From assembly GCF_009905215.1 (NCBI RefSeq), contig NZ_CP047593.1:1864900-1928899 (forward strand): 64,000 bases of DNA, read 5' to 3'. This DNA comes from Tichowtungia aerotolerans (lineage in GTDB: Bacteria > Verrucomicrobiota > Kiritimatiellia > Kiritimatiellales > Tichowtungiaceae). A program made the position numbers and the translations under genes. Shown here one piece after another: positions 14,349 to 59,398 of this stretch; position 1 is the stretch's first letter, and each line of letters starts with the position of its first letter. The notes beneath the pieces are model-generated. The model searched no databases. It saw only the letters and a program-made list of their open reading frames with translations, and was not told the DNA's origin.

Positions 14349-14452
14349 CTGTAGGCGCGGGCGCCCATCGTACGCAGCTACAGTTTTCCAAACATTGGAA
14401 ACTTCGGACGGCCCGGCGGTCCATCCCTACCTGAATTTTCCAAACATTGGAA
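14349..14452. repeat. Composite repeat: TGTAG element plus two 15-bp palindromes
   Basis: A 35-nt element bounded by CTGTAG...CTACAG (14349-14383) is followed by two identical copies of TTCCAAACATTGGAA at 14386-14400 and 14438-14452. The TGTAGGCGCGGGCG start recurs at 42254, again beside TTCCAAACATTGGAA. Confidence 0.8.
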
Positions 14453-19881: not shown

Positions 19882-21062
19882 TGTACGATGTAATTATTAT
19901 CGGCGGGGGCGCGGCGGGCATGTTTGCCGCCGCGGTACTCGCGGAAGAGGCTCCGGAGCTGAATGTGCTGGTGCTCGAAAAGGGCGCGAAGCCGCTGGCG
20001 AAGGTCCGTGTTTCGGGCGGCGGGCGCTGCAATTTGACGCATGTCTGCTCCGACATTCGCGAGTTCATCAAAAACTATCCGCGCGGCGGGCGCGAGCTGA
20101 TCGGCCCGTTCAACCGTTTTGGGCCGGCGCAAACCGTCGACTGGTTTGAGTGGCACGGCGTGCCGCTGGTCACGCTCGACGACGGCTGCCTTTTTCCCGA
20201 ATCCGACAGCTCTGAAAGTGTGATTGATGCGCTGCTCGAAAGCGGCGCGAAGATCCGGACGAATGCGCAAGTCGCCAAAATTTTTGGCTTTGAGGGTGGG
20301 TTCAATGTGAAGCTGACGGACGGCGAGCAGCTCAGTTGCCGTAAGCTGCTGGTGGCGACCGGCGGCGGCGCATTTGTCGAAGGGCTCGGCCACACCATCG
20401 AGCCGTGCGTGCCGTCGCTGTTTACATTCAATACGTCGGATAAAGAACTGACCGCACTGTCCGGAATCGTGGTGGAGCCGGTTCAGGTGAGCGCCGGAAA
20501 GCTGAAGGCGGACGGTGCACTGCTGATAACGCATCAGGGCGTCAGTGGCCCGGCGGTTTTGCGGCTTTCGTCATTTGGTGCGCGGACGCTGGCGGAAACC
20601 AATTACCGCTTTGAAATGAAGATCAATTGGCTCCCGGATCAGAACGCGGAACAGATTTTCCAAACCTTGGAAAAACAGAAGGCGGCGTCGCCGAAAAAGC
20701 AGATCGGAACCTGGTCGCCGGTCGGGCTGGTTTCCAGACTTTGGAAACTGCTGGTTGCCCGCGCGGGCATCGATGAGACGCGCGAGTGGGGCGGATGCTC
20801 CGCGAAGGCGCTGCGGCAGCTTGCCGCGCAGATCAGCGGGTTCACGCTTCCAATTACTGGAAAAAACCGGCACCGCGAGGAATTTGTCACCTGCGGCGGA
20901 ATTCGCCTGAAGGAAGTGAATTTCCAGACGATGGAAAGCCGTCTGGTTCCCGGTCTCTATGTTGCGGGCGAGGTGCTCGATATCGATGCGCTGACCGGCG
21001 GCTTCAATCTGCAGGCGGCATGGACAACGGGATATCTCGCGGCGCAGGCGATGATGATTTAG
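19881..21062 (+). CDS. BaiN/HI0933-type FAD flavoprotein
   Basis: 393 residues from ATG 19881, overlapping the preceding stop (TAATG, translational coupling). YDVIIIGGGAAGMFAAA is the FAD-binding loop and VSGGGRCNLTH is the signature of the HI0933/BaiN family, with VATGGGAF and GEVLDIDALTGGFNLQAAWTTG closing the FAD site. The redox role is unknown. Oddly, the gene carries four copies of the TTCCA-N5-TGGAA word (20658, 20732, 20848, 20922) in less than 300 bp, encoding IFQTLEK, SRLWKLL and similar variants in two frames. The stop overlaps that of the convergent gene by 4 nt. Confidence 0.9.
   Translation: MYDVIIIGGGAAGMFAAAVLAEEAPELNVLVLEKGAKPLAKVRVSGGGRCNLTHVCSDIREFIKNYPRGGRELIGPFNRFGPAQTVDWFEWHGVPLVTLDDGCLFPESDSSESVIDALLESGAKIRTNAQVAKIFGFEGGFNVKLTDGEQLSCRKLLVATGGGAFVEGLGHTIEPCVPSLFTFNTSDKELTALSGIVVEPVQVSAGKLKADGALLITHQGVSGPAVLRLSSFGARTLAETNYRFEMKINWLPDQNAEQIFQTLEKQKAASPKKQIGTWSPVGLVSRLWKLLVARAGIDETREWGGCSAKALRQLAAQISGFTLPITGKNRHREEFVTCGGIRLKEVNFQTMESRLVPGLYVAGEVLDIDALTGGFNLQAAWTTGYLAAQAMMI
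20658..20936. repeat. Four TTCCA-N5-TGGAA palindromes inside the flavoprotein gene
   Basis: TTCCAAACCTTGGAA (20658-20672), TTCCAGACTTTGGAA (20732-20746), TTCCAATTACTGGAA (20848-20862) and TTCCAGACGATGGAA (20922-20936). This is the densest cluster in the window. Confidence 0.85.
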
Positions 21063-22450: not shown

Positions 22451-23611
22451 ATGAATTTACGGACGGTTTCCACTCCCTGTTTTATTGTTGATGAGGCGCT
22501 GGTACGGCGGAACTGCGAAATCCTCGCATCTGTTAAAGAACGGACCGGATGCAAGATCCTGCTGGCGCTCAAAGGTTTTGCCTGCTGGCCGCTTTTTCCA
22601 ATGGTTGGAAAATACCTCGACGGCGTCTGCGCCAGCTCCCCGTGGGAGGCGCGCCTCGGCCGTGAGGAATTCGGCAGGGAAGTCCATGCTTTTGCTGCTG
22701 CTTATTCGGACGCCGATTTTGCGGAACTGCTGACCCTTTGCGATGAGATTGACTTCAACTCGTTCCATCAACTGAATCGATTCCGTGATGTGGCGGAACG
22801 CGACCTCCGGGCGCGTTTGAGCGCGCTCGGAGAGCCCGTTCCACCTGTTAAAATCGGACTGCGCATTAACCCCGAATGCTCCACGCAAGATCATGCCATT
22901 TATGATCCCTGCGCGCCGAAGTCCCGCCTTGGAATCCGGCGGGCGGATTTTGAAGGACAAAGCCTCGACGGTATTTCCGGACTGCATTTCCATACGCTGT
23001 GTGAACAGAACGCCGATGCACTCGAAAAAACGCTGGCCGCAGTCGAAGAAAAATTCGGCGAGTTTCTGCCGCAGATGGAGTGGGTCAATTTCGGCGGCGG
23101 ACACCACATTACGCGCGACGACTATGATGTTGATCGGCTTTGCGAGCTCATTAATGCGTTTAAGGCGAAATACGGTGTGCAGGTGATTCTGGAGCCGGGC
23201 GAAGCGGTTGCGCTCAACGCGGGAGTGCTGGTTGCTTCCGTGCTCGATGTGGTTCACAACGAAATGGACATTGCCATTCTCGATGTTTCCTGCACCTGCC
23301 ACATGCCGGATGTGATGGAGATGCCGTACCGACCGGTTATCACCGGGGCCGGGGAGTCCGGCGAAAAGGCGCATACTTACCGGTTGGCCGGTCTCAGCTG
23401 TTTGGCCGGCGATGTCATCGGCGACTGGTCTTTTGATGAACCGCTGAAGCCGGGCGATCGGTTGGAGTTTCTCGACATGGCCCACTACACCATGGTCAAA
23501 ACCACGTTTTTCAACGGCATTCAGCATCCTTCCATCGCCATCCAGCGCGGCGACGAACTTGAGGTTGTTCGCAAGTTTAATTATCAGGATTACAAAAACC
23601 AATTAGCTTAA
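22451..23611 (+). CDS. nspC: Carboxynorspermidine decarboxylase
   Basis: 386 residues. PLP-dependent fold III enzyme; STPCFIVDEALVRRNCEIL and LALKGFACW place the PLP lysine at K41. WVNFGGGHHITRDDYD, LEPGEAVALNAG and DVSCTCHMPDVMEMPYRP are conserved NspC blocks, the Cys of SCTCHMPD being the active-site residue on the partner subunit. It decarboxylates carboxy(nor)spermidine made by the 18685-19881 dehydrogenase. No strong SD is seen before the ATG. The word TTCCAATGGTTGGAA (22596-22610) is read in frame as FPMVGK in a conserved stretch. Confidence 0.95.
   Translation: MNLRTVSTPCFIVDEALVRRNCEILASVKERTGCKILLALKGFACWPLFPMVGKYLDGVCASSPWEARLGREEFGREVHAFAAAYSDADFAELLTLCDEIDFNSFHQLNRFRDVAERDLRARLSALGEPVPPVKIGLRINPECSTQDHAIYDPCAPKSRLGIRRADFEGQSLDGISGLHFHTLCEQNADALEKTLAAVEEKFGEFLPQMEWVNFGGGHHITRDDYDVDRLCELINAFKAKYGVQVILEPGEAVALNAGVLVASVLDVVHNEMDIAILDVSCTCHMPDVMEMPYRPVITGAGESGEKAHTYRLAGLSCLAGDVIGDWSFDEPLKPGDRLEFLDMAHYTMVKTTFFNGIQHPSIAIQRGDELEVVRKFNYQDYKNQLA
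22596..22610. repeat. 15-bp palindrome inside nspC
   Basis: TTCCAATGGTTGGAA, exact arms, encoding part of LFPMVGKYL. Confidence 0.8.
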
Positions 23612-24427: not shown

Positions 24428-25531
24428 ATGAATAAAAAAATGATTTTTGCGGGCGTGGGGGTTGTCTTGGTCGCCGGAGCCGGCGGCTGGTTTCTTCGCG
24501 GCATGGCCGGCGCCAAAGGCCCCGGCATGCCGGGGATGGGCGGCATGCAGATGCCGCCGCCGGCGGTCAATGCCATGGAGATCCGTCCCTCCTTCCTGCG
24601 CCCCGCCGAGGAGTTTATCGCCCGGGTCGAGCCCGTTCAGGATGTGATGATCCGCAGCGAAATTTCCGGAATGATTGAAACCGTTCATTTTTCCGAGGGG
24701 GCTCAGGTTCGCGAAGGCGACGTGCTCTTCACCATCGACAGGCGCAGCTATCAGGCCGCCGCCGATGCGGCGGAGGCCGATCTGCTGCTTGCCCGGCGGC
24801 TGTATGAGCGGCTGCAGAAGGCCGATGAGCGCAGCGTTTCCAAATCCGATCTCGAAACGGCTGAAAGCGATCTGCTGCGGGCGCAGGCCGCCTTCGATGC
24901 CGCACAGGTGGATCTGGAGCGCACGGAAATCAAGGCGCCTGTCAGCGGGCGCATCGGTTCGGCGCTGATCAAAAAAGGCAACTATGTTACGCCGGCGTCC
25001 GGGGACCTGGCGCGCATTGTGCAGATCGATCCGATCCGGGTGACCTTTTCGATGACCGACCGCGAGTATCTCGCGCTTCGGCAGCGGGAACTGGCCGGCG
25101 ACGGCCGCGTGCGCGTCGCCCAGGTTCGGCTGGCGGACGGCTCCACCTTTGATGCCGTCGGCAGGAAGGATTTTGACGACAACGCCATCAACCCGGCGAC
25201 CGGCACGATTGCCGTCCGCTACCTGTTCGAAAACAAAGACCAGCTGCTGCTCCCCGGCGGTTTCGTGACGGCGCTGATCCGCAACTCCGACGCCGCCGCG
25301 GGGATCCTGATTCCGCAGAAGGCGGTGCTGGTCGATCAGCAGGGAGCCTATGTGCTCACGGTGGATGAGGCCGGTTCTGTGGGAACGGCGCGGATTGCGC
25401 CGGGTCAGCAGGTCGGCACCGGCATCACCGTGCTGTCCGGACTGAAAGAAGGCGACCGGATTATTGTCGACGGCGTGCAGAAGGCACAGCCGGGGGCGAC
25501 GGTCAGTGTGACTTTGCTGGAGGATAAATAA
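24428..25531 (+). CDS. RND efflux periplasmic adaptor (MFP)
   Basis: 367 residues from ATG 24428 (GAGG 7 nt upstream; an ATG at 24422 is too close). An N-terminal hydrophobic segment is followed by a Gly/Met/Pro-rich linker ([14 protein letters not shown]), the lipoyl halves ([28 protein letters not shown] and [20 protein letters not shown]), a coiled-coil hairpin between them (about residues 105-160), then beta-barrel and membrane-proximal domains. No lipobox Cys, so it is anchored or secreted. It bridges pump and outer-membrane channel. It overlaps the pump gene by one base. Confidence 0.93.
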
Positions 25532-28500
25532 TGATTTCCCGAGTGTTCATCGAGCGTCCGCGACTGGCGGGCGTCGTCTCTATTGTTTTAATGCTGGCGG
25601 GGGTTCTGTCCATCGCCTCGCTGCCGATCGCCCAGTACCCGCAGGTGACGCCGCCGCAGATCACGGTGCGCGCCAGCTATCCGGGCGCCGATGCCGAAGT
25701 GCTGGCCGCCACGGTGGCCGGCCCGATTGAGGATGCCGTCAACGGGGTCGATGACATGATTTACATGTCGTCGACCTCCGACAGTTCCGGTTCCTACATG
25801 CTGACGGTCAGTTTCGAGGTCGGCACCGATCCGGACATCGCGCAGGTCCAGGTGCAGAACCGCGTTGCGCAGGCCGAGCCGCTGCTGCCGAGCGAAGTGA
25901 CTCAGCAGGGCGTGGTCGTGCAGACGCGCTCCTCCGACATGCTCGGTTTCCTGATGATCCGCTCGCCGGGCGGAAGCCGCAACCAGCGCTTTCTCAGCGA
26001 CTATGCCACGAGGGTGATTCAGCCGGCGCTCGAGCGAATCCCCGGCGTCAGCAGCGCGCAGGTGTACGGTCCGAAGTACAGTATGCGCGTCTGGATGGAT
26101 GCCGACCGCCTCTCCGCGCTCGGCCTGTCGGCCTCGGATGTCACCTCGGCCATTCAGCGGCAGAATATCCAGGCCTCGGTCGGTTCGGTCGGCAGCGTGC
26201 CGGGCGACGGTTCGGTGCAGGTCACCTATACACTCAAGGCCGAAGGCCGCCTGAACGACCCGGCCGACTTTGAAAACATTGTGGTGCGCACCGGCGAAAA
26301 CGGCGCGGTGGTGTACCTCAAGGATGTCGCCCGCATCGAAAAAGGGGCCGACCGCTATCTCTATTCCGGTTTCTACAACGGCGAGTCCGCGGTTCCGATT
26401 GCGATCAGCCGCTCGACCGGTTCCAATGCGCTCGAGGCCATGAACTCACTGCGCCGGGAGATGGAGTCGCTCAAGCAGATGTTCCCGGACGACATGGAGT
26501 ACGTGCTGCCCTACGATGCGACCGAAGTGGTGCGCGTCAGTATCCGCGAAATCGTCACGACGCTGCTGCTCACGGTCTTCCTCGTCGTCCTCGTCTGCTA
26601 CACCTTCCTGCAGGACTGGCGCGCGACGCTGGTGCCGACGCTGACCATCCCGGTTTCGCTCTGTGCCACATTCGCGGTGCTGATGGCGTTCGGCTACAGC
26701 ATCAACACCCTGACGCTCTTCGGGCTGGTGCTGGCGATCGGCGTGGTGGTGGACGACGCGATCGTGGTGGTGGAGCGGGTGCTGCATCTGATGGAGCACG
26801 AAAACCTCGACCACAAGGCGGCGACCATCAAGGCGATGGAGCAGGTCAGCGGCGCGATTGTCGCCACGACGCTCGTGCTGCTCGCCATCTTTGTGCCGAT
26901 CGGTTTTGTCGGCGGGATCACCGGGAAAATCTACCAGCAGTTTGCCGTCGCCATTTCCGCCGCGGTGCTGTTTTCCACGGTGAACGCGCTGACGCTCAGC
27001 CCGGCGCTCTGCGCCACGATGCTTCAGATTGTCAAACCGAAGAAGCACGGCCCGCTTCGCTGGTTCAATACCGGCCTGGGACGGGTGCGCGGCCATTATG
27101 TCAACGCCACGACCCGCCTTGCGCGTCGCCGGATTGTCACCCTGTTCGTGCTGCTCGGCGTGCTGGCCGGAATCTGGCTGGTCGCCTCCCGCAGCCCGTC
27201 GGCCTTTCTGCCGGATGAGGACCAGGGGGTGATCTTCGGCGCGGTGCAGCTTCCGGAGGGGGCGAGCAGCGAGCGCACCCATGAACTGCTCCGTGAAGTC
27301 ATCACGCCGCTGCGCGATGAGCCGGGAGTGATGTCGATTGTCGAAATCACCGGCTTCAGCCTGATCGGTGGTTCGGGTGAAAACCTGGCCTTCGTGGTGA
27401 TCGACCTCGACAGCTGGGATAAACGCCTCTCCCCGGAGCTGCAGGTCGACGCCCTGCGCCAGAAGTTCCAGGCGCGGCTCTCCGCCGTGCCCGGCGCCCG
27501 GATCGACCTCTTCACGCCGCCGGCCATTGCCGGACTCGGTATGAACAGCGGTCTGGACATCCGCCTGCAGGCGATTGATAACAGCGATCCGCATCGGCTG
27601 AGCGCGGTGCTCAACAGCTTTCTGATGCAGCTCAACGCCGCGCCGGAAATCCGCTACGCCTTCAGCGCCTACTCCTCGGCAACGCCGCACCTCTTCCTGC
27701 AGGTGGACCGCGTGAAGGCTTCGCTGATGCAGGTGGAGATCAATGAGATCTTCTCCACCCTGCAGAACTATTTCGGCTCGCGCTACGTCAACGACGTCAA
27801 CTTTGAGGGACAGGTCAACAAGGTGATCGTGCAGGCCGACTGGCAGTTCCGCGACCGGGTGGATGACATCCGCAAGCTCTACGTCAAGAGCCGCGCCGGC
27901 GCCATGGTTCCGCTCGGCAGTATTATGACGATTTCTCCGACGCTGGCTCCGCGGCTGGTCGACCGCTACAACAAATTCACGGCGGCGACCATCTCGGCGA
28001 TCATCACGCCCGGCGTCAGCAGCGGCGACGCGATGACGGCGGTCTCGGCGATCGCCCGCGACCACCTGCCCGAAGGCTACAGCTTCGATTGGTCGAGCCT
28101 GAGCTATCAGGAGGCGAAGGCGGCCGGCGGCTCCACCATTCTCATCGCCATGGCGCTGGTCTTCGGCTTCCTCTTCCTGGTGGCCCAGTACGAGAGCTGG
28201 AGCATTCCGCTGCCGGTGATGTTCTCGACAGCGGTGGCCACCCTCGGCGCGCTGATCGGCCTGAAGATGATGGATCTGCCGCTCAGCATCTACGCGCAGC
28301 TCGGGCTGATCCTGCTGGTCGGCCTCGCCAGCAAAAACGCCATTCTGATTGTCGAGTTCTCCAAAACCCGGCGCGAGGAGGGGCTCTCCATCGTCGACGC
28401 TGCGGCCGACGGGGCCGGGCAGCGTTTCCGCGCCGTGCTGATGACCGCCTTCACCTTTGTGCTCGGCGTGCTGCCGATGGTGTTTGCCACCGGCGCCGGT

Positions 28501-30033
28501 GCCAAGGCCCGGCAGGCCATCGGATCGACGGTGTTCTGGGGGATGACCGCGGCGACGCTCTTCGGGATTATCCTCGTGCCCGCGCTCTACACGCTGTTCC
28601 AGACCCTTCGTGAGCGGGGACATGCATTCCGCCTGCGGCACACCCACAGCAAACTCCACCTGCTGGTGATTCTGCTGGTGCCGTTCTTCTTCGGCGGCTG
28701 TCTGACCGTCGGCCCGGATTATGAACAGCCCGAACTGCCGGCCGTTGGAAGCGCTGAATTCGAGACCCCTGCCGACTGGTGGACCACGCTCGGCGACCCG
28801 CTGCTTGCAGAGCTCGTCGATGAAGCGCTGCAGAACAACCACGACCTGCAGTCGGCGGTTGCCGCGGTGCGTGCCGCCCGGGCCCGGCTGAATATTGCCC
28901 GGGCCGCGTACGGCCCGCAGCTCGATGCCGGCGGCAGCTTTACCCGCAGTAAATCCGGGGATGATGTTTCCGTGGTGAGCAGCGGCGAGCGCGATGTCTA
29001 CAGCGCCGGCTTCGATGCCGCGTGGGAAATCGACATCTTCGGCGGTACGCGTCGTTCATCCGAAGCTGCGCTCGCCGCGTTTGAGGCGCAGGATGCCGCC
29101 CGGGCCATGGTTGAAGTTTCGCTCGCCGCCGAAACCGCGCAGGCCTATGTGCAGCTGCGCGAAGCTCAGCAGCGCCTGCGGGTTGCTCAGGAAAACCTGA
29201 GCCTGCAGCAGGAAACCTTCGATCTGCTCCAGTCCAGATTTGACAGCGGGCTGATCAACGAGCTGGCCTACCAGCAGTCCAGGGCCAACCTGGAAAGCAC
29301 CCGGGCCGCCGTCCCGCAGCTTGAGACGGTGCTGGAGCAGAGCTTTAATGCGCTGGCCGTGCTGACCGGCGCCATGCCCGGAACACTTCAGGAGCGCTTT
29401 GCCGAGGTCCGGGAAATCCCGGCCGCGACGCCGGCGGATGTAACCGGTATTCCGGCTGACCTGCTGCGCCGCCGTCCCGATGTGCGCGTGGCCGAGCGCG
29501 AGCTCGCCGCGCAGACCGCCCGCATCGGGGTCGCCAAGTCGGATTATTTTCCGAAGCTCCGACTGAACGGCTCCATTGGGGTCGAGGCGCTCAGCTTTGG
29601 CGGACTGTATGATGACGGCAATGAGTTCTACGGCTTCGGCCCCGGCGTGAGCTGGGCCATCTTCCGCAGCGGATCCATTCGCAACAACATCCAGGCGCAA
29701 ACCGCGCTGCAGGAGCAGGCGCTGGCCGCTTACGAGCAGAGCGTGCTCTCCGCTGTGCAGGAGACGCGTGATGCGCTGGCCGCCTTCCGCAACGAGCAGG
29801 TCCGGCTCGACGCACTGACCGCTGCGGCAGACGCTGCGCGCTCTGCCGCCAGGCTCGCCGACGACCGCTACGCAAACGGTCTCGAACCGTTCGACACCGT
29901 GCTCGACGCCCAGCGCGTTCAGCTCCAGCTCGAAGACCGGCAGGTCCAGAGCCAGAGCGAAAGCACGCTCTCCGTCATCCGCCTCTACAAAGCCCTTGGC
30001 GGCGGATGGGGGCAAAGTTTGGCCGACCAATAG
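25531..30033 (+). CDS. RND pump fused to outer-membrane factor
   Basis: 1500 residues in one uninterrupted frame. Residues 1-about 1030 are a complete HAE1-type RND transporter: the proton relay Asp pair is in [18 protein letters not shown] (TM4) and the Lys in [15 protein letters not shown] (TM10). After TM12 comes a basic linker ([15 protein letters not shown]) and a hydrophobic stretch [16 protein letters not shown] ending at Cys1057. From there about 440 residues are a NodT/OprM-type outer-membrane factor ([63 protein letters not shown]). The hydrophobic stretch looks like the factor's old lipoprotein signal, kept as TM13. Whether the mature protein is cleaved at Cys1057 is unknown. Confidence 0.93.
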
Positions 30034-30069
30034 TTCAGTACGCGGGGAGGCCGACCGTCTGCACAGAGG

Positions 30070-30113
30070 ATTCCAACCTTTGGAAAAAGATGTTCCAAAG
30101 GTTGGAATTTTTT
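30070..30113 (+). terminator. Intrinsic terminator built from two palindrome copies
   Basis: A perfect 16-bp stem (30070-30085 / 30093-30108), 7-nt loop AAAGATG, then a run of six T. Each arm is itself a TTCCA-N5-TGGAA word (TTCCAACCTTTGGAA and TTCCAAAGGTTGGAA). It ends the efflux operon. Confidence 0.9.
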
Positions 30114-30216
30114 ATGGGTGCAGGCTCCGCCTACTGCCAATGGTTGGAAAATCGGTTGCGGGTGGGCGGCTGCTTGCTTTATGGTGATTGCGAATGCAAG
30201 GCGGAGGAAATTTCGG

Positions 30217-31095
30217 ATGAAAATGATTTGGATTGGTTTAATGACATTGGGGCTGGCCTGTGCGGCGGGCGCTGCGGATAAGGAACCCGTAAAGGTGACC
30301 GGTGACCGGGTCAGTTTGCGTGCGGCTCCGGATCTGAATGCAGTTCTGTTAGACCGCGCGATGAGCGGTGACGAGCTGGTTCTGAAAGATAACACCAATC
30401 CGGATTGGGTCGGAGTCCTTCCGCCGGATTCTATTGATCTGTGGGTGCTTGGTGAATATGTGGAGAATGGAACGGTCGTGCCTGCCAAGCTGAATGTGCG
30501 GTCCGGTCCCAGTCTGAACCACAGCGTGGTCGGCGTGGTGAAAAACGGAACGCAGCTGACGGTTCGGGGGGATGTTTCCGGCTGGCTGCGCATTGCGCCT
30601 CCGGAAGAGGCGGTTGTTTGGATCAGTCGCAAGTTTGCAGACGTTGCGCCGCCACTGCTTCTGGAGCCGGAGGTGATTGTGGAAGTGGTGCCGGCTCCTG
30701 AGCCGGAAAAGGCAGAGGTTGCTGTTTCGGAGCCGAAAAAAACGCCGCGGGTGGTGATTGTTGAAAAAGTGGATCAACCCGAGGCCAACAGGATGATGGC
30801 GGCCGCGGCGGATGTGCCGGAGCTTCCGGAGGTACTGGTGCCGGATCCGGACAAAAAGCAGGGCGGTGAGGAAACGTTTAGCGGCATTCTCCAGTTTGCG
30901 GGAGGAATCCTTTATAAACTGACCGATCCGACTGCGGGAGACGCTACGGTCTGTTATGTTCGCGGCAATTCGAGCCAGATGGAAAAACTGAAAGGACGGC
31001 TGCTGATCATTACCGGCCCGGTTTATCGCGCCGTAGACCTCGATATGCCGTTTGTCCGCCCGGTTCAGATCAAACTGCTCAAGCAGGCGGAATAG
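30217..31095 (+). CDS. Secreted SH3-domain protein
   Basis: 292 residues from ATG 30217 (GGAGG 9 nt upstream; the 99-nt upstream in-frame extension is rejected). Signal peptide MKMIWIGLMTLGLACAAGA. Two bacterial SH3-like repeats follow: VTGDRVSLRAAPDLNAVLL (about 24-80) and PAKLNVRSGPSLNHSVVGVVKNG (about 86-140). A Pro/Glu/Val-rich spacer leads to a C-terminal domain (EETFSGILQFAGGILYKLTDP). Such repeats usually bind cell-wall peptides, so an envelope role is likely. The region 30118-30216 holds a further imperfect palindrome copy at 30135. Confidence 0.8.
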   Translation: MKMIWIGLMTLGLACAAGAADKEPVKVTGDRVSLRAAPDLNAVLLDRAMSGDELVLKDNTNPDWVGVLPPDSIDLWVLGEYVENGTVVPAKLNVRSGPSLNHSVVGVVKNGTQLTVRGDVSGWLRIAPPEEAVVWISRKFADVAPPLLLEPEVIVEVVPAPEPEKAEVAVSEPKKTPRVVIVEKVDQPEANRMMAAAADVPELPEVLVPDPDKKQGGEETFSGILQFAGGILYKLTDPTAGDATVCYVRGNSSQMEKLKGRLLIITGPVYRAVDLDMPFVRPVQIKLLKQAE

Positions 31096-36824: not shown

Positions 36825-39800
36825 ATGACAGGTAAAGTGATTTTATGGGTCGGGTTGATAGCAGCATCGGCATTCGCTGCGCCAGTCAAATTCTCGCAGG
36901 TGGTTTTTCAGGACAGTTTTGATTCATATGAAACCGGTTCTGCGCTTCCGGATAAAGGCGGATGGACCCGTGTGGAGGCAAAGCCCGGACGGGAAACCTA
37001 TGCGGAAATTCGCGAAGAAGCCGGAAGAAAAATTCTGCAGGTTCGGGACAACGGAAACGCCGCGTTGAGGGTTGTTGCCAAAAACATCCCCGGACTGGAT
37101 TCGAAACTGGTGCGCTTCAGCGCCGATATCATGGAGCCGGACAACGGCCTTGACGGGTCGCTTGCCATCAAATTCGGTATCGGTGAAGCCTCGGCCAAGG
37201 AGGGGGCGGTAACCGTGGGCGGAATCCGTGTCGACGGGGAGAAACTGCGTCCCGCCGGCTCTGGAATCTACGTGTTCGGACAATGGTTTCATATCGATGC
37301 CTATTTTAATGAAACATCGGAAGGCATGGAATATATCGGGCCGGATGGCAGTACATCTTTTCTTGGATCCGGCCTGATGGATCTGTGGGTGAACGGCCAG
37401 CTGGCCGCAGGTAATACATTACAGGACCGTACGGTTGAGAGTCTCACAGCCATCAGAAGTTTCCGGATCGAGACTTTTTCGTCGTCTTCCCAGGAGGTCT
37501 GGTTCGACAATATCGAGATCGCGGTTCCGTCTGACCAGAAAGTGATCATCGAAGCGCCGGTCAAGCTGTCGATCTATGAGCCGCGGGTCTATGCGCCGGT
37601 TAATCTTTCGTCTTCGCAGATCGTTGCCGAGCAGCAGCGTATCAAGCAGCGGTATACACAGTTCCTGATCGGAACAGACCAAACTTTTATCGGAAAATTC
37701 GGAGCCGAGGTCGCGGCGGGTTTCTTTGACCGGATTGAGGGGCCGATTGCCAAAGCCATGGCCTTTGATTACTCCAAAGACGCAGGGGAAACCTTTCATA
37801 TTTTTGAAAACGATCCGGGATATAAAGAGGAGTTTGGCGTCTACTCCCAGATCCTTCAGCAGTTTGTGCTCGCGCTGGCCTACGGGTATACCGTCAACAT
37901 TCCGGACAGCCCGTATTACAAAAACCCGGACGTACTCGCCGCCTACCTGAAATGTCTGGATTATCTTTACGGACGCGGCGTGCGCGATGGAATGACCTTT
38001 CACTACAATGTACATCGCATGCATATGGACGGTGCGCCGCAGCCGGAAAACGGTGCGGGCAACATCGTTAAAATGGAGCTGCGCATGGGTGCTTACTGCC
38101 AGTCCGTGCTGCTGATGGAGCCGTACTTCAAGGATACGCCTGCCTTCAGGAAGGCTCATGCGTTGGTTCGCCACCTCGAAATGCTGGGCAAAACCTCCGG
38201 TCATGTCCGCTACTACGATCCCTATGTCGCGCCGCCTGCTTTCAAATATCTTGCGCAGTCCGATGCCATGCAGAACTACGGCGATACGACGCTTGTTTCT
38301 GCGCTGCTTGAAACCGACCCGCAACGCATTGCCGATATGCTGCTTGAAACAAAACGTATCTATTCGGACTCGCTCAGTGTCGTTCCCGGCTGGGCCGACA
38401 CCATCAAGCCCGACTTTACCGGTTTTCATCATCGCGGCATCTATGGCAATGCCTACACCGGCGGCTTTATTCCGCAGGCAGCCTTCGGCGTGTACCTTCT
38501 TTCCGGTACCCCCTATGAAGTGCGCCCAGAGTCTGTTGAAAACGTTAAAAAGCTCATCAAGACCTACCGGACCTATTGCCAGAAATATTCCATGCCGTTT
38601 GGCATTCGCGGCCGTATGCCCGAAAATACCCACAATATCAACACGCAGGTCTTTCCCGGCATTCTCATCTATGCTTCTTCGCTCGGGCTCGATGACGATG
38701 AAATGAAAGCGGTCTTCGGGCGCCTGTGGGATCTCGACCAGGTCACCCTCGAGTTCCTCTTTAACGGCGGGCGCGGAAAGATTTTCCGGGGCATGTACTG
38801 TCTCGACATGCTTCGCCAGCTCGATGCACTGGCTCCTTCTGCCGAGCCCGACCCCAACGGCTTCTGGTTCAAACCTTACGGTGGACTCGCCATTCACCGG
38901 CGCGCCGACTGGATGGCTGCAGTCAAAGGCTACAGCAAATACATTTGGGACTATGAAAACGGAAAAAGACTCGAAAACATATACGGACAGTATTTCAGCC
39001 ACGGTTCTTTTACGCTGTTTACCGAAGGCGACCCCGTCAGCGATATCGCCAGCGGTTACGACCTCCGCAGAGGCTGGGACTGGTACCGTATGCCCGGCAC
39101 CACCGCAGTCCATTTTCCCATTGAGCCGCGCGGTACTCTCGAGCATCGACAGTTCAGCCCCGAGACTTTTCTGGGCGGGGTCTCTGTCGACGGGCAGAAC
39201 GGTTTGTTCAGCATGATCCTCAACCAGGAAAAATTCGGTGACGGAACAGAAATCGACCTGAAAGCCAAAAAGAGCATCTTCTTTGTGGATGACACCATCC
39301 TTCTGCTCGGCTCCGGTATTTCCGGCGGCGACGGAAAGCACGCCGTGGAAACCACGCTGTTTCAGTCCGTGCTTCCCGACGGCTCTGCTTACGCTGTTCC
39401 CGACGGGGTGTTGACCGATCCGGCAGGCAATACGTATCTTGTTAAATCCGGCAAACTGAAGAGTCGGGTCGGAAGACAGGATTCCTATCTCGACAACGGC
39501 AAAACCAAAACCTCCGGCAACGTTGCCGTCGCATGGATCGACCACGGCCTCGCGCCGAAAAACGCCTCCTACGAAGCCGCCATCGGTGTGCGCGGCGCAG
39601 AGCTCGCGCCGTACGAAGTGCTTTGTGCCGACGACCGGATGCATCACGTCCGCTTCCCGCAGCAGGGCATCGATGCCTACGCGATTTTCCAACCCCTGGA
39701 AAAAATGCTTCCAAACATTGGAACGGTTGATGAGCCCTGCCTGATCATGACCCGGGAAACTTCCGACGGCATCGAACTTTCGCTCGCCAATCCCGATATC

Positions 39801-42187: not shown

Positions 42188-42312
42188 AACAGAGATTAAT
42201 TGTTTTGCCAAGGTCTGGAAAGGTTAAGGTAAAAATTTCCAAACATTGGAATCTGTAGGCGCGGGCGGTGATCGCGCCCAACGTGCTCTGCTGTAATATG
42301 AACAGAGATTAA
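42188..42312. repeat. Composite repeat region flanked by 12-bp direct repeats
   Basis: AACAGAGATTAA occurs at 42188-42199 and 42301-42312. Between them lie a weak palindrome copy (42207-42221), TTCCAAACATTGGAA (42237-42251) and a TGTAGGCGCGGGCG element containing GGCGCG...CGCGCC. From 42313 to 42428 I see no gene. Confidence 0.65.
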
Positions 42313-43865: not shown

Positions 43866-44818
43866 GCCGTCCACTCCGCATCCGCCAGATATTCGTCCAG
43901 GATTTCATGATAGGTCGTGAGGCGGTGGCATTTTTTGACCTTCTTCAGGAATTTCCGGGCATTGGAAAGATTCTGGCCCGGATAGCGCCAGAATTCTTTC
44001 ATTTTTCCAAGCATTGGAAGATCGCCGTCGATCACGGTGCGATAGTTTTCAAACACCTCGTCGTGAAACGCCTTCAGCCGGCCAATCGGGTTTCCGATGT
44101 CCGGATTCCCGTTTTTGATCTGCTCGCACAGAAACGGATTCGCCAGCAGTCCGCGGCCGAGCATAAACCTATGCACCCCTATGCAATAGGGTTCCAATGC
44201 TTGGAAAAAGGCGAGGGTGAAAATATCGCCGTTGTAGCAGACGGGATGCTGGATGAGTTCATAGGCTTCGGCGAAGGCGTCGAGGTCGACGCTTCCGTCA
44301 TACATTTGCTCCGCTGTGCGCGGGTGGATGATCACTTCGCTGAGCGGATGGCGGTTGAGCACTGGAATCAGGTTGAGCAGATCTGATTTGTCCGAAATTC
44401 CGAGTCGCACTTTGACGGAAATGTTGCACGGGCTTTCGGCGCAGATGGTTTCGAGCAGGGCGTCGATTTTTTCGGGGTGCGGCAGCAGGCCGGAGCCGCG
44501 GCCTTTGTTGCGGACGGGTTTATGCGGGCAGCCGAGGTTCCAGTTGATTTCTTCGTAACCGAGGTCGTGCAGGGCTTTGGCCATGTTTACAAACTCGGCG
44601 GCGTCTTTGCCGAGCAGCTGCGGAATCAGCGGCAGACCGGAATTATTCTCCGGCAGAACATCCTTCAAAAGCTTCGGGTTGATCTTTTCTGCGGGTACAG
44701 TGGTGATGAACGGCGCCATTTCGGCGTCCAGGCCCTGGAAATGGCGTACGAAAGCCTTGCGGTAGTGCATCGTGGTGACTCCCCGCATCGGTGCTAGAAT
44801 TAAAAACGGACTGTGCAT
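43862..44818 (-). CDS. dus: tRNA-dihydrouridine synthase
   Basis: 318 residues from ATG 44818; an upstream TTG start at 44854 is less likely. FMN-dependent reduction of uridine in tRNA D-loops. ILAPMRGVTTMHYRKAF, EINWNLGCPHKPVRNKGRGSGLL (catalytic Cys) and EVIIHPRTAEQMYDG match the family, with a helical C-terminal domain. The LGCPHK block differs from the LGCPVK/LGCP-KV of DusA/B/C, so the subclass is unclear. Three palindrome words lie inside it (43953, 44005, 44192). Confidence 0.92.
   Translation of the reverse strand: MHSPFLILAPMRGVTTMHYRKAFVRHFQGLDAEMAPFITTVPAEKINPKLLKDVLPENNSGLPLIPQLLGKDAAEFVNMAKALHDLGYEEINWNLGCPHKPVRNKGRGSGLLPHPEKIDALLETICAESPCNISVKVRLGISDKSDLLNLIPVLNRHPLSEVIIHPRTAEQMYDGSVDLDAFAEAYELIQHPVCYNGDIFTLAFFQALEPYCIGVHRFMLGRGLLANPFLCEQIKNGNPDIGNPIGRLKAFHDEVFENYRTVIDGDLPMLGKMKEFWRYPGQNLSNARKFLKKVKKCHRLTTYHEILDEYLADAEWTA
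43953..44206. repeat. Three 15-bp palindromes inside dus
   Basis: TTCCGGGCATTGGAA (43953-43967), TTCCAAGCATTGGAA (44005-44019) and TTCCAATGCTTGGAA (44192-44206). The last two encode PMLGK- and FQALE-type peptides on the minus strand. Confidence 0.8.
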
Positions 44819-59342: not shown

Positions 59343-59385
59343 AATCCGTACGCATGGGGTGCCATGCTGTACGGATTTACTTTTT
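59343..59385 (+). terminator. Intrinsic terminator after infC
   Basis: Outer 9-bp stem AATCCGTAC/GTACGGATT, inner GCATGG/CCATGC with one bulged T, then TAC and five T. The T-run merges into the palindrome copy at 59384. Confidence 0.85.
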
Positions 59386-59398
59386 CCAAACATTGGAA
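59384..59398. repeat. 15-bp palindrome after infC
   Basis: TTCCAAACATTGGAA, one of five identical same-strand copies in the window. Confidence 0.85.

Follow-up and report, generated by a model that had tools for sequence, protein, structure and literature searches.

Introduction

To our knowledge, none of the known uptake sequences is palindromic, and we know of none that follows a helical spacing rule. REP and REPIN elements are dispersed palindromes that occur as inverted pairs. The uptake sequences DUS and USS come in lineage dialects (PMC3630211, in excerpt), and close inverted pairs of them form terminators at gene ends (PMC1852404, in excerpt). Cyanobacteria carry a highly iterated palindrome, HIP1 (PMC4390886, in excerpt), and the boxes of NrdR are palindromes that lie 15–17 bp apart, with three or four whole turns between their centres (PMC12051234, in excerpt).

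Here, we describe a palindromic 15-bp word from Tichowtungia aerotolerans, starting from a 64-kb stretch of its genome (the window), to which positions refer unless stated otherwise. The first-pass annotation had proposed a terminator made of two inverted copies of this word, and had taken it as support for an uptake sequence or a co-opted repeat. Judged by titles and abstracts, no description of the word was found in the open-licence full-text papers that were searched.

A hairpin downstream of an efflux gene

A gene on the forward strand (25531–30033) encodes a fusion of an RND efflux transporter with an outer-membrane efflux domain (ACR_tran + OEP), and the next gene on the same strand (30217–31095) encodes a bacterial SH3-domain protein. 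Between them, also on the forward strand, is a hairpin (30070–30113) with a 16-bp perfect stem, a 7-nt loop and six T, which is a candidate intrinsic terminator for the efflux gene. Its letters are, in order, A, TTCCAACCTTTGGAA, the loop AAAGATG (30086–30092), TTCCAAAGGTTGGAA and TTTTTT (30108–30113). The two words occupy 30071–30085 and 30093–30107 (all words are treated as strandless) and are 22 bp, or 2.1 turns, apart; the efflux stop codon lies 37 bp before the first. Both are perfect dyads and are inverted copies exactly as first described, and their centres, CCT and AGG, are indeed complementary. The stem pairs 30070–30085 with 30093–30108, which bears out the 16-bp stem and the six T of the first-pass annotation, with the detail that the last pair takes the first T of the T-run. 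A further copy of the word, TGCCAATGGTTGGAA, which has one mismatch and is absent from the first-pass annotation, is found at 30135–30149, 42 bp (4.0 turns) from the second.

The RNA of the hairpin had a predicted folding energy of −29.1 kcal/mol, compared to a mean of −11.45 for shuffled sequences (z = −7.29), and none of 200 shuffles equalled it. A stable hairpin past a stop codon, with a T-run directly after the stem, is the anatomy of an intrinsic terminator, as had been claimed. The stem is AT-rich, with 6 of 16 G/C in each arm, and thus lacks the G+C-rich stem of such terminators. A simple terminator consensus scan of 29800–30500 missed the hairpin and reported two weaker sites at 30153–30177, and Rfam gave no match anywhere in the window. 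We consider it fairly probable that the hairpin and T-run form a terminator of the efflux transcript, through local co-option of a word pair.

A word with up to two mismatches was found 6–48 bp past the stop codon in 7 of 10 orthologues of the efflux gene in the genus, own genome included, and in 6 of 10 at up to one mismatch. Words occur there even though the intergenic DNA is dissimilar. The layout also varies: genome G003 has a 31-bp series, and G006 a pair at 22 bp with complementary centres. Four additional genomes of the genus contained only distant paralogues of the efflux gene. The gene itself joins the RND transporter and the outer-membrane efflux protein in a single reading frame of 1500 aa; frames of 1498–1549 aa were found in 5 of 9 orthologues from the genus, while the other four were shorter, some perhaps cut by contig ends.

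Abundance and placement of the word

The word, TTCCAA-NSN-TTGGAA (counted as TTCCAA-N3-TTGGAA), is present in 11 copies in the window and in 567 copies in the 3.88-Mb single-contig genome, where the reversed control gave 0. The same half-sites with a spacer of 0–2 or 4–8 were not found in the window. With all 11 window copies at a spacer of 3, and 567 copies against 0 in the control, the words in the hairpin are not there by chance. Elsewhere in the window, two words (14386–14400 and 14438–14452) lie 52 bp, or 5.0 turns, apart between convergent genes, and another (59384–59398) also falls between convergent genes. Those at 20658–20672, 22596–22610, 44005–44019 and 44192–44206 are inside genes, the last two separated by 187 bp (17.9 turns), and one (42237–42251) is between genes. 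A second pair with a 22-bp distance, TTCCAACCCCTGGAA (one mismatch) and TTCCAAACATTGGAA, lies inside a gene at 39687–39723; its centres are not complementary, and it has no T-run.

When the copies were aligned, a T was seen to precede and an A to follow the word, and the centre base was C or G in ≈98%. Conservation stopped ≈3 bp beyond either side. Among 220 copies with one mismatch, the changes clustered at two inner positions, being A to G in 145 of the 220. This pattern looks like binding specificity, judging from the sequences, as random decay would be spread over all positions. We write the family consensus of the 15-bp dyad with its flanks as T-TTCCRR-NSN-YYGGAA-A.

The limited conservation bears on one possible origin of the word, a mobile palindromic repeat of the REP/REPIN kind spread by a transposase. 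The words are dispersed, palindromic and often paired, and in some relatives mostly intergenic, as such a repeat might be. However, the lack of copied flanks, with nothing conserved beyond ≈3 bp per side, contradicts it. The unrelated spacers within arrays (see below), the many words in coding sequence, and words gained and lost by point changes in an orthologous gene also speak against it. We regard this origin as very improbable.

Placement was assessed for 149 exact copies in 864 kb, using gene calls from an in-house hexamer-based caller rather than annotation. Genes contained 98 copies, compared to 130 expected. Codirectional gaps contained 28 (expected, 10), convergent gaps 10 (expected, 1.7) and divergent gaps 9 (expected, 2.9), and 4 more copies touched a gene edge or the end of a stretch. 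Counting words with up to one mismatch in the window and an even grid of stretches, the density was 2.0/kb within 80 bp after stop codons, 1.0/kb before starts, and 0.2/kb both in genes and farther from them. The same order (after stops, before starts, elsewhere) was seen in G048 and G076, and more weakly in G018–G020.

The word has a density of ≈0.15 per kb over the whole genome, and the first 650 kb alone give the same value. A stretch of ≈126 kb (genome positions 94646–220623) contains no exact word, where ≈18 would be expected at the genome average; the GC content of the part sampled is ordinary, and the stretch is possibly acquired DNA. Among the matches listed, the centre ACA outnumbered TGT on the forward strand by 28 to 5 in sampled stretches of the first 1.3 Mb; this trend was weaker and opposite beyond 1.3 Mb, and GGT/ACC leaned the other way. 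The pattern is strand-related and hints at replication polarity, for which we make no claim. Near 703.7 kb (L074:3570–3840) there are about nine near-words, TTCC(G/A)...TGGAA, many of them 31–32 bp apart. They adjoin a gene resembling a phage terminase, apparently in a prophage with its own variant array. Near 3.871 Mb (L340:11228–11400), five phased words, in steps of 31, 53, 33 and 31 bp, are flanked on one side by a divergent gene and on the other by a gene that by eye resembles the type IV pilus/T2SS ATPase PilB, with a PilC-like gene after it.

Helical phasing of neighbouring words

Whole-genome pairs with a gap of 3–20 bp numbered 18, and every gap was 7, 15 or 16 bp. Distances between words clustered at 22, 31–32, 42, 52, 63, 74, 83, 116, 126 and 137 bp. 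The phasing test was based on an even grid of 20 stretches, an unbiased sample that was analysed alone, and counted words with up to one mismatch. The grid yielded 23 consecutive distances below 300 bp, with a best period of 10.46 bp and a mean cosine of 0.84; with the window added (n = 30), the period was again 10.46 bp and the mean cosine 0.85. A larger set (n = 79), whose stretches were partly picked near known words or pairs, also gave 10.46 bp (bootstrap 95% interval, 10.44–10.48). In comparison, the 33 control palindromes with permuted half-sites that had enough pairs gave a mean cosine of 0.00 (sd 0.09, maximum 0.21). Words less than 300 bp apart thus sit on a common face of the helix.

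Pairs inside single genes were phased as well (32 pairs, R = 0.92), and coding repeats do not explain this, since neither 22 nor 31 is divisible by 3. At 140–300 bp, the number of pairs was at chance level (14, with 15.4 expected), yet the pairs were in phase, with a mean cosine of 0.85. Counting words with up to two mismatches, coherence fell from 0.88 at 18–45 bp to 0.44 at 300–360 bp and to ≈0 beyond 450 bp. DNA has a torsional length near 100 nm, and ≈300 bp is the range over which twist is kept; the observed decay with distance resembles that due to thermal twisting.

The spacing also bears on the idea that the words organise the chromosome, with a nucleoid-associated or domain-forming protein bridging or coating sites on one face, and with a gene-end bias that reflects where such sites do the least harm. 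Same-face spacing to ≈300 bp favours this idea, as does the roughly even distribution along the genome at the density given above. However, relaxed DNA has a helical pitch of 10.46 bp, while a period of ≈11 bp is seen for protein loops in living cells. On this and the evidence from relatives below, we consider chromosome organisation possible but on the unlikely side.

Word pairs as terminators

The words could also be kept mainly as transcription terminators, with inverted pairs giving rise to hairpins. Besides the hairpin anatomy at 30070–30113, the concentration of words at gene ends, seen in three genome sets, speaks for such a role. So do the centres of the closest pairs: at a distance of 21–22 bp, 6 of 14 pairs had fully complementary centres, where 5.5% would be expected (p = 6e-5), indicating that hairpin formation matters for these pairs. 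Other paired copies near gene ends, for which a search had been suggested, do exist. At greater distances, complementary centres were found in 4 of 38 pairs (30–33 bp), 1 of 17 (39–42 bp) and 0 of 9 (51–64 bp).

Against this, a T-run follows just 1 of the 14 close pairs, that of the window, and an extended stem with a T-tail was found at 2 of 43 exact words near stop codons. The bulk of the words (98 of 149) are in genes. The commonest pair spacings are 31–32, 42 or 52 bp, without complementary centres and with many such pairs in genes, and the helical series of 31, 42, 52, 63 bp and beyond would be meaningless for RNA hairpins. The pairing follows the DNA helix (10.46 bp), and terminators do not account for this. 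The first-pass reading is partly supported: the gene-end density and the close complementary pairs agree with it, and the scarcity of T-runs does not support it as a general rule. Termination as the main role of the words was rejected because T-runs are too few, and we consider it quite improbable; the terminator reading appears to fit the 30070–30113 hairpin and a few other sites.

Relatives, arrays and dialects

The word was present in 84 of 117 genomes searched (own included), with 62–793 copies per genome within the genus and a maximum of 1339 in the class. Of 288 genomes sampled across the phylum, those outside the class had 0–5 words. The more than 10-fold difference in copy number within one genus (62 to 793), and the near absence of words from many complete relatives, would be odd for a basic organiser and count against a chromosome-organising role.

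In genomes G048, G057, G081 and G104, the words form arrays with steps of 31 or 31/32 bp (some 22 or 30) and unrelated spacers, which makes tandem copying an improbable origin for them. Triple arrays were found at 116 or more loci, mostly intergenic: of 187 matches listed, 135 were in gaps, 12 in genes, 13 at edges and 27 at contig ends. In codirectional gaps, they are placed symmetrically between stop and start, and the neighbouring genes are unrelated. (Arrays beside unrelated genes would suit chromosome organisation.) The genomes with triple arrays belong mostly to Kiritimatiellae, Kiritimatiellales or Pontiellaceae, and some to Lentisphaerae, Verrucomicrobia or Spartobacteria.

The word also occurs in dialects. 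A search for generic pairs found them in 29 of 80 genomes, with control matches in one genome. The dialect TTCCGA forms pairs in species of family f19 (19–179 per genome), and loci with TTCCAT or TTCCAC (TTCCAY) were found in the generic search, their host genomes being inferred. The spacing is equal for TTCCAA, TTCCGA and TTCCAY. In G059 and G092, every pair among the matches listed had a gap of 15–17, although 5–28 was permitted. A dialect search in 113 kb of 20 word-poor genomes had found nothing; the later pair search did find dialects. Phasing is not uniform: in G018–G020 (640–1177 words each) it was absent at 18–45 bp (n = 9, cosine 0.04) and weak at 45–300 bp (cosine 0.40–0.49).

In some genomes with very few words, phased pairs remain (loci L343, L347, L355 and L357), and several of their neighbours resemble, by eye, genes of mobile elements or defence. 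We considered these pairs as a mark of core targets; given such neighbours, import from word-rich relatives is likelier. Word pairs were also seen on 12 viral contigs, several of them out of phase; contigs L229 and L220–L222 carry two to six words at spacings of 28, 36, 42, 45 or 60 bp. These may be unrelated palindromes.

Candidate binding proteins

One global transcription factor might use the words as its operators; the single Lrp/AsnC protein of the class would be an example and, by architecture, was the best known candidate. Sites of Lrp are palindromic and two or three turns apart (PMC2995911, in excerpt), and palindromic sites on one face at two or three turns are what we observe. Lrp is mostly single-copy, the 9 genomes without Lrp in families f3 and f26 carry 0–1 words, and 4 of 7 genus members examined have words ≈50 bp upstream of lrp. 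On the other hand, a word near lrp was found in 0 of 13 other word-rich genomes, most words are in genes and after stops, and arrays flank unrelated genes. Many genomes with Lrp have no words or pairs. Read by eye in 40 aligned Lrp proteins, the recognition helix differs between species that have the word in common. Genomes G027, G032, G041 and G042 gave no Lrp match and have 25–88 words, but they are 59–89% complete. The variable helix and the word-less genomes with Lrp make this protein an unlikely binder, and the operator reading as a whole is likewise doubtful.

Autoregulation by a regulator encoded next to an array was also considered; the array neighbours include no regulator that recurs across species. 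A binder was not found among Lrp and the array-neighbour genes that were looked at.

Discussion

The primary object described here is a genome-wide, dialect-bearing and helix-phased recognition word, to which termination at the efflux locus is secondary. The copy number, the spacing law, the dialects, the tolerated mismatches and the gene-end bias are observed; the protein and its multivalency we infer. The dyad family T-TTCCRR-NSN-YYGGAA-A is likely to be the double-stranded DNA site of a dimeric, multivalent protein, with same-face spacing under selection. Such a protein would bind the words as double-stranded DNA, and the protein, or a surface with many copies of it, would grip two or more sites together. 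Selection would keep adjacent sites facing one side of a duplex that is straight and torsionally relaxed. At the efflux locus, two words two turns apart would also fold in RNA, as a co-opted pair. A dimeric-box repressor such as NrdR can need whole turns between its boxes (PMC12051234, in excerpt), which makes the spacing law plausible without identifying the binder.

As a role for the word, we lean, with less than even confidence, towards a signal that would favour a cell's own kind of DNA in uptake. The genome-wide spread of the words, within genes as well as at gene ends, their dialects by lineage and their absence from several stretches favour this role. As with uptake sequences, one short word is in large excess throughout the genome, both inside genes and between them, and has dialects. 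ComEC was found in 112 of 117 relatives, and a PilT-family protein above the cut-off in 109 of 117; both are in the own genome and also in word-less relatives. Being nearly universal, they neither support nor refute uptake. For the uptake idea of the first-pass annotation, these genes do not discriminate; the hairpin itself we read as a probable co-opted pair. A chromosome-organising protein is nearly as likely as uptake, both being tentative. Palindromic copies that face the same side of a straight, torsionally relaxed duplex over ≈300 bp might constitute a new kind of genome-wide signal, an uptake or recognition system in which multivalent arrays are read on linear DNA and dialects mark lineages, a suggestion that we make with some reserve.

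Should the words be uptake signals, they would extend DUS-like systems beyond the lineages known to us to have them, and the spacing rule would reveal the way in which a receptor grips DNA. Should a chromosome protein use them, the genome would record which sites that protein has to keep together. In both cases, how far the phasing persists offers a physical clue to the state of the DNA when it is read, relaxed and linear or supercoiled, and the dialects allow the protein to be sought through covariation.

Among the known systems, REP and REPIN differ in that the word has no conserved flanks or copied unit beyond the palindrome. HIP1 is an 8-mer linked to methyltransferases, whereas the word is a gapped dyad with helical phasing. 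Unlike the clusters of Lrp/AsnC, the words are mostly in genes and after stops, and the recognition helix does not track them. NrdR uses one box pair of another sequence at ribonucleotide-reductase promoters, compared to the hundreds of sites seen here. The DUS and USS of Neisseriaceae and Pasteurellaceae, like the word, number in the hundreds to thousands, both within genes and between them, and have dialects; the word, known from sequence alone, differs from them in being palindromic, in keeping to one face of the helix over hundreds of bp, and in forming arrays at 31/32 bp.
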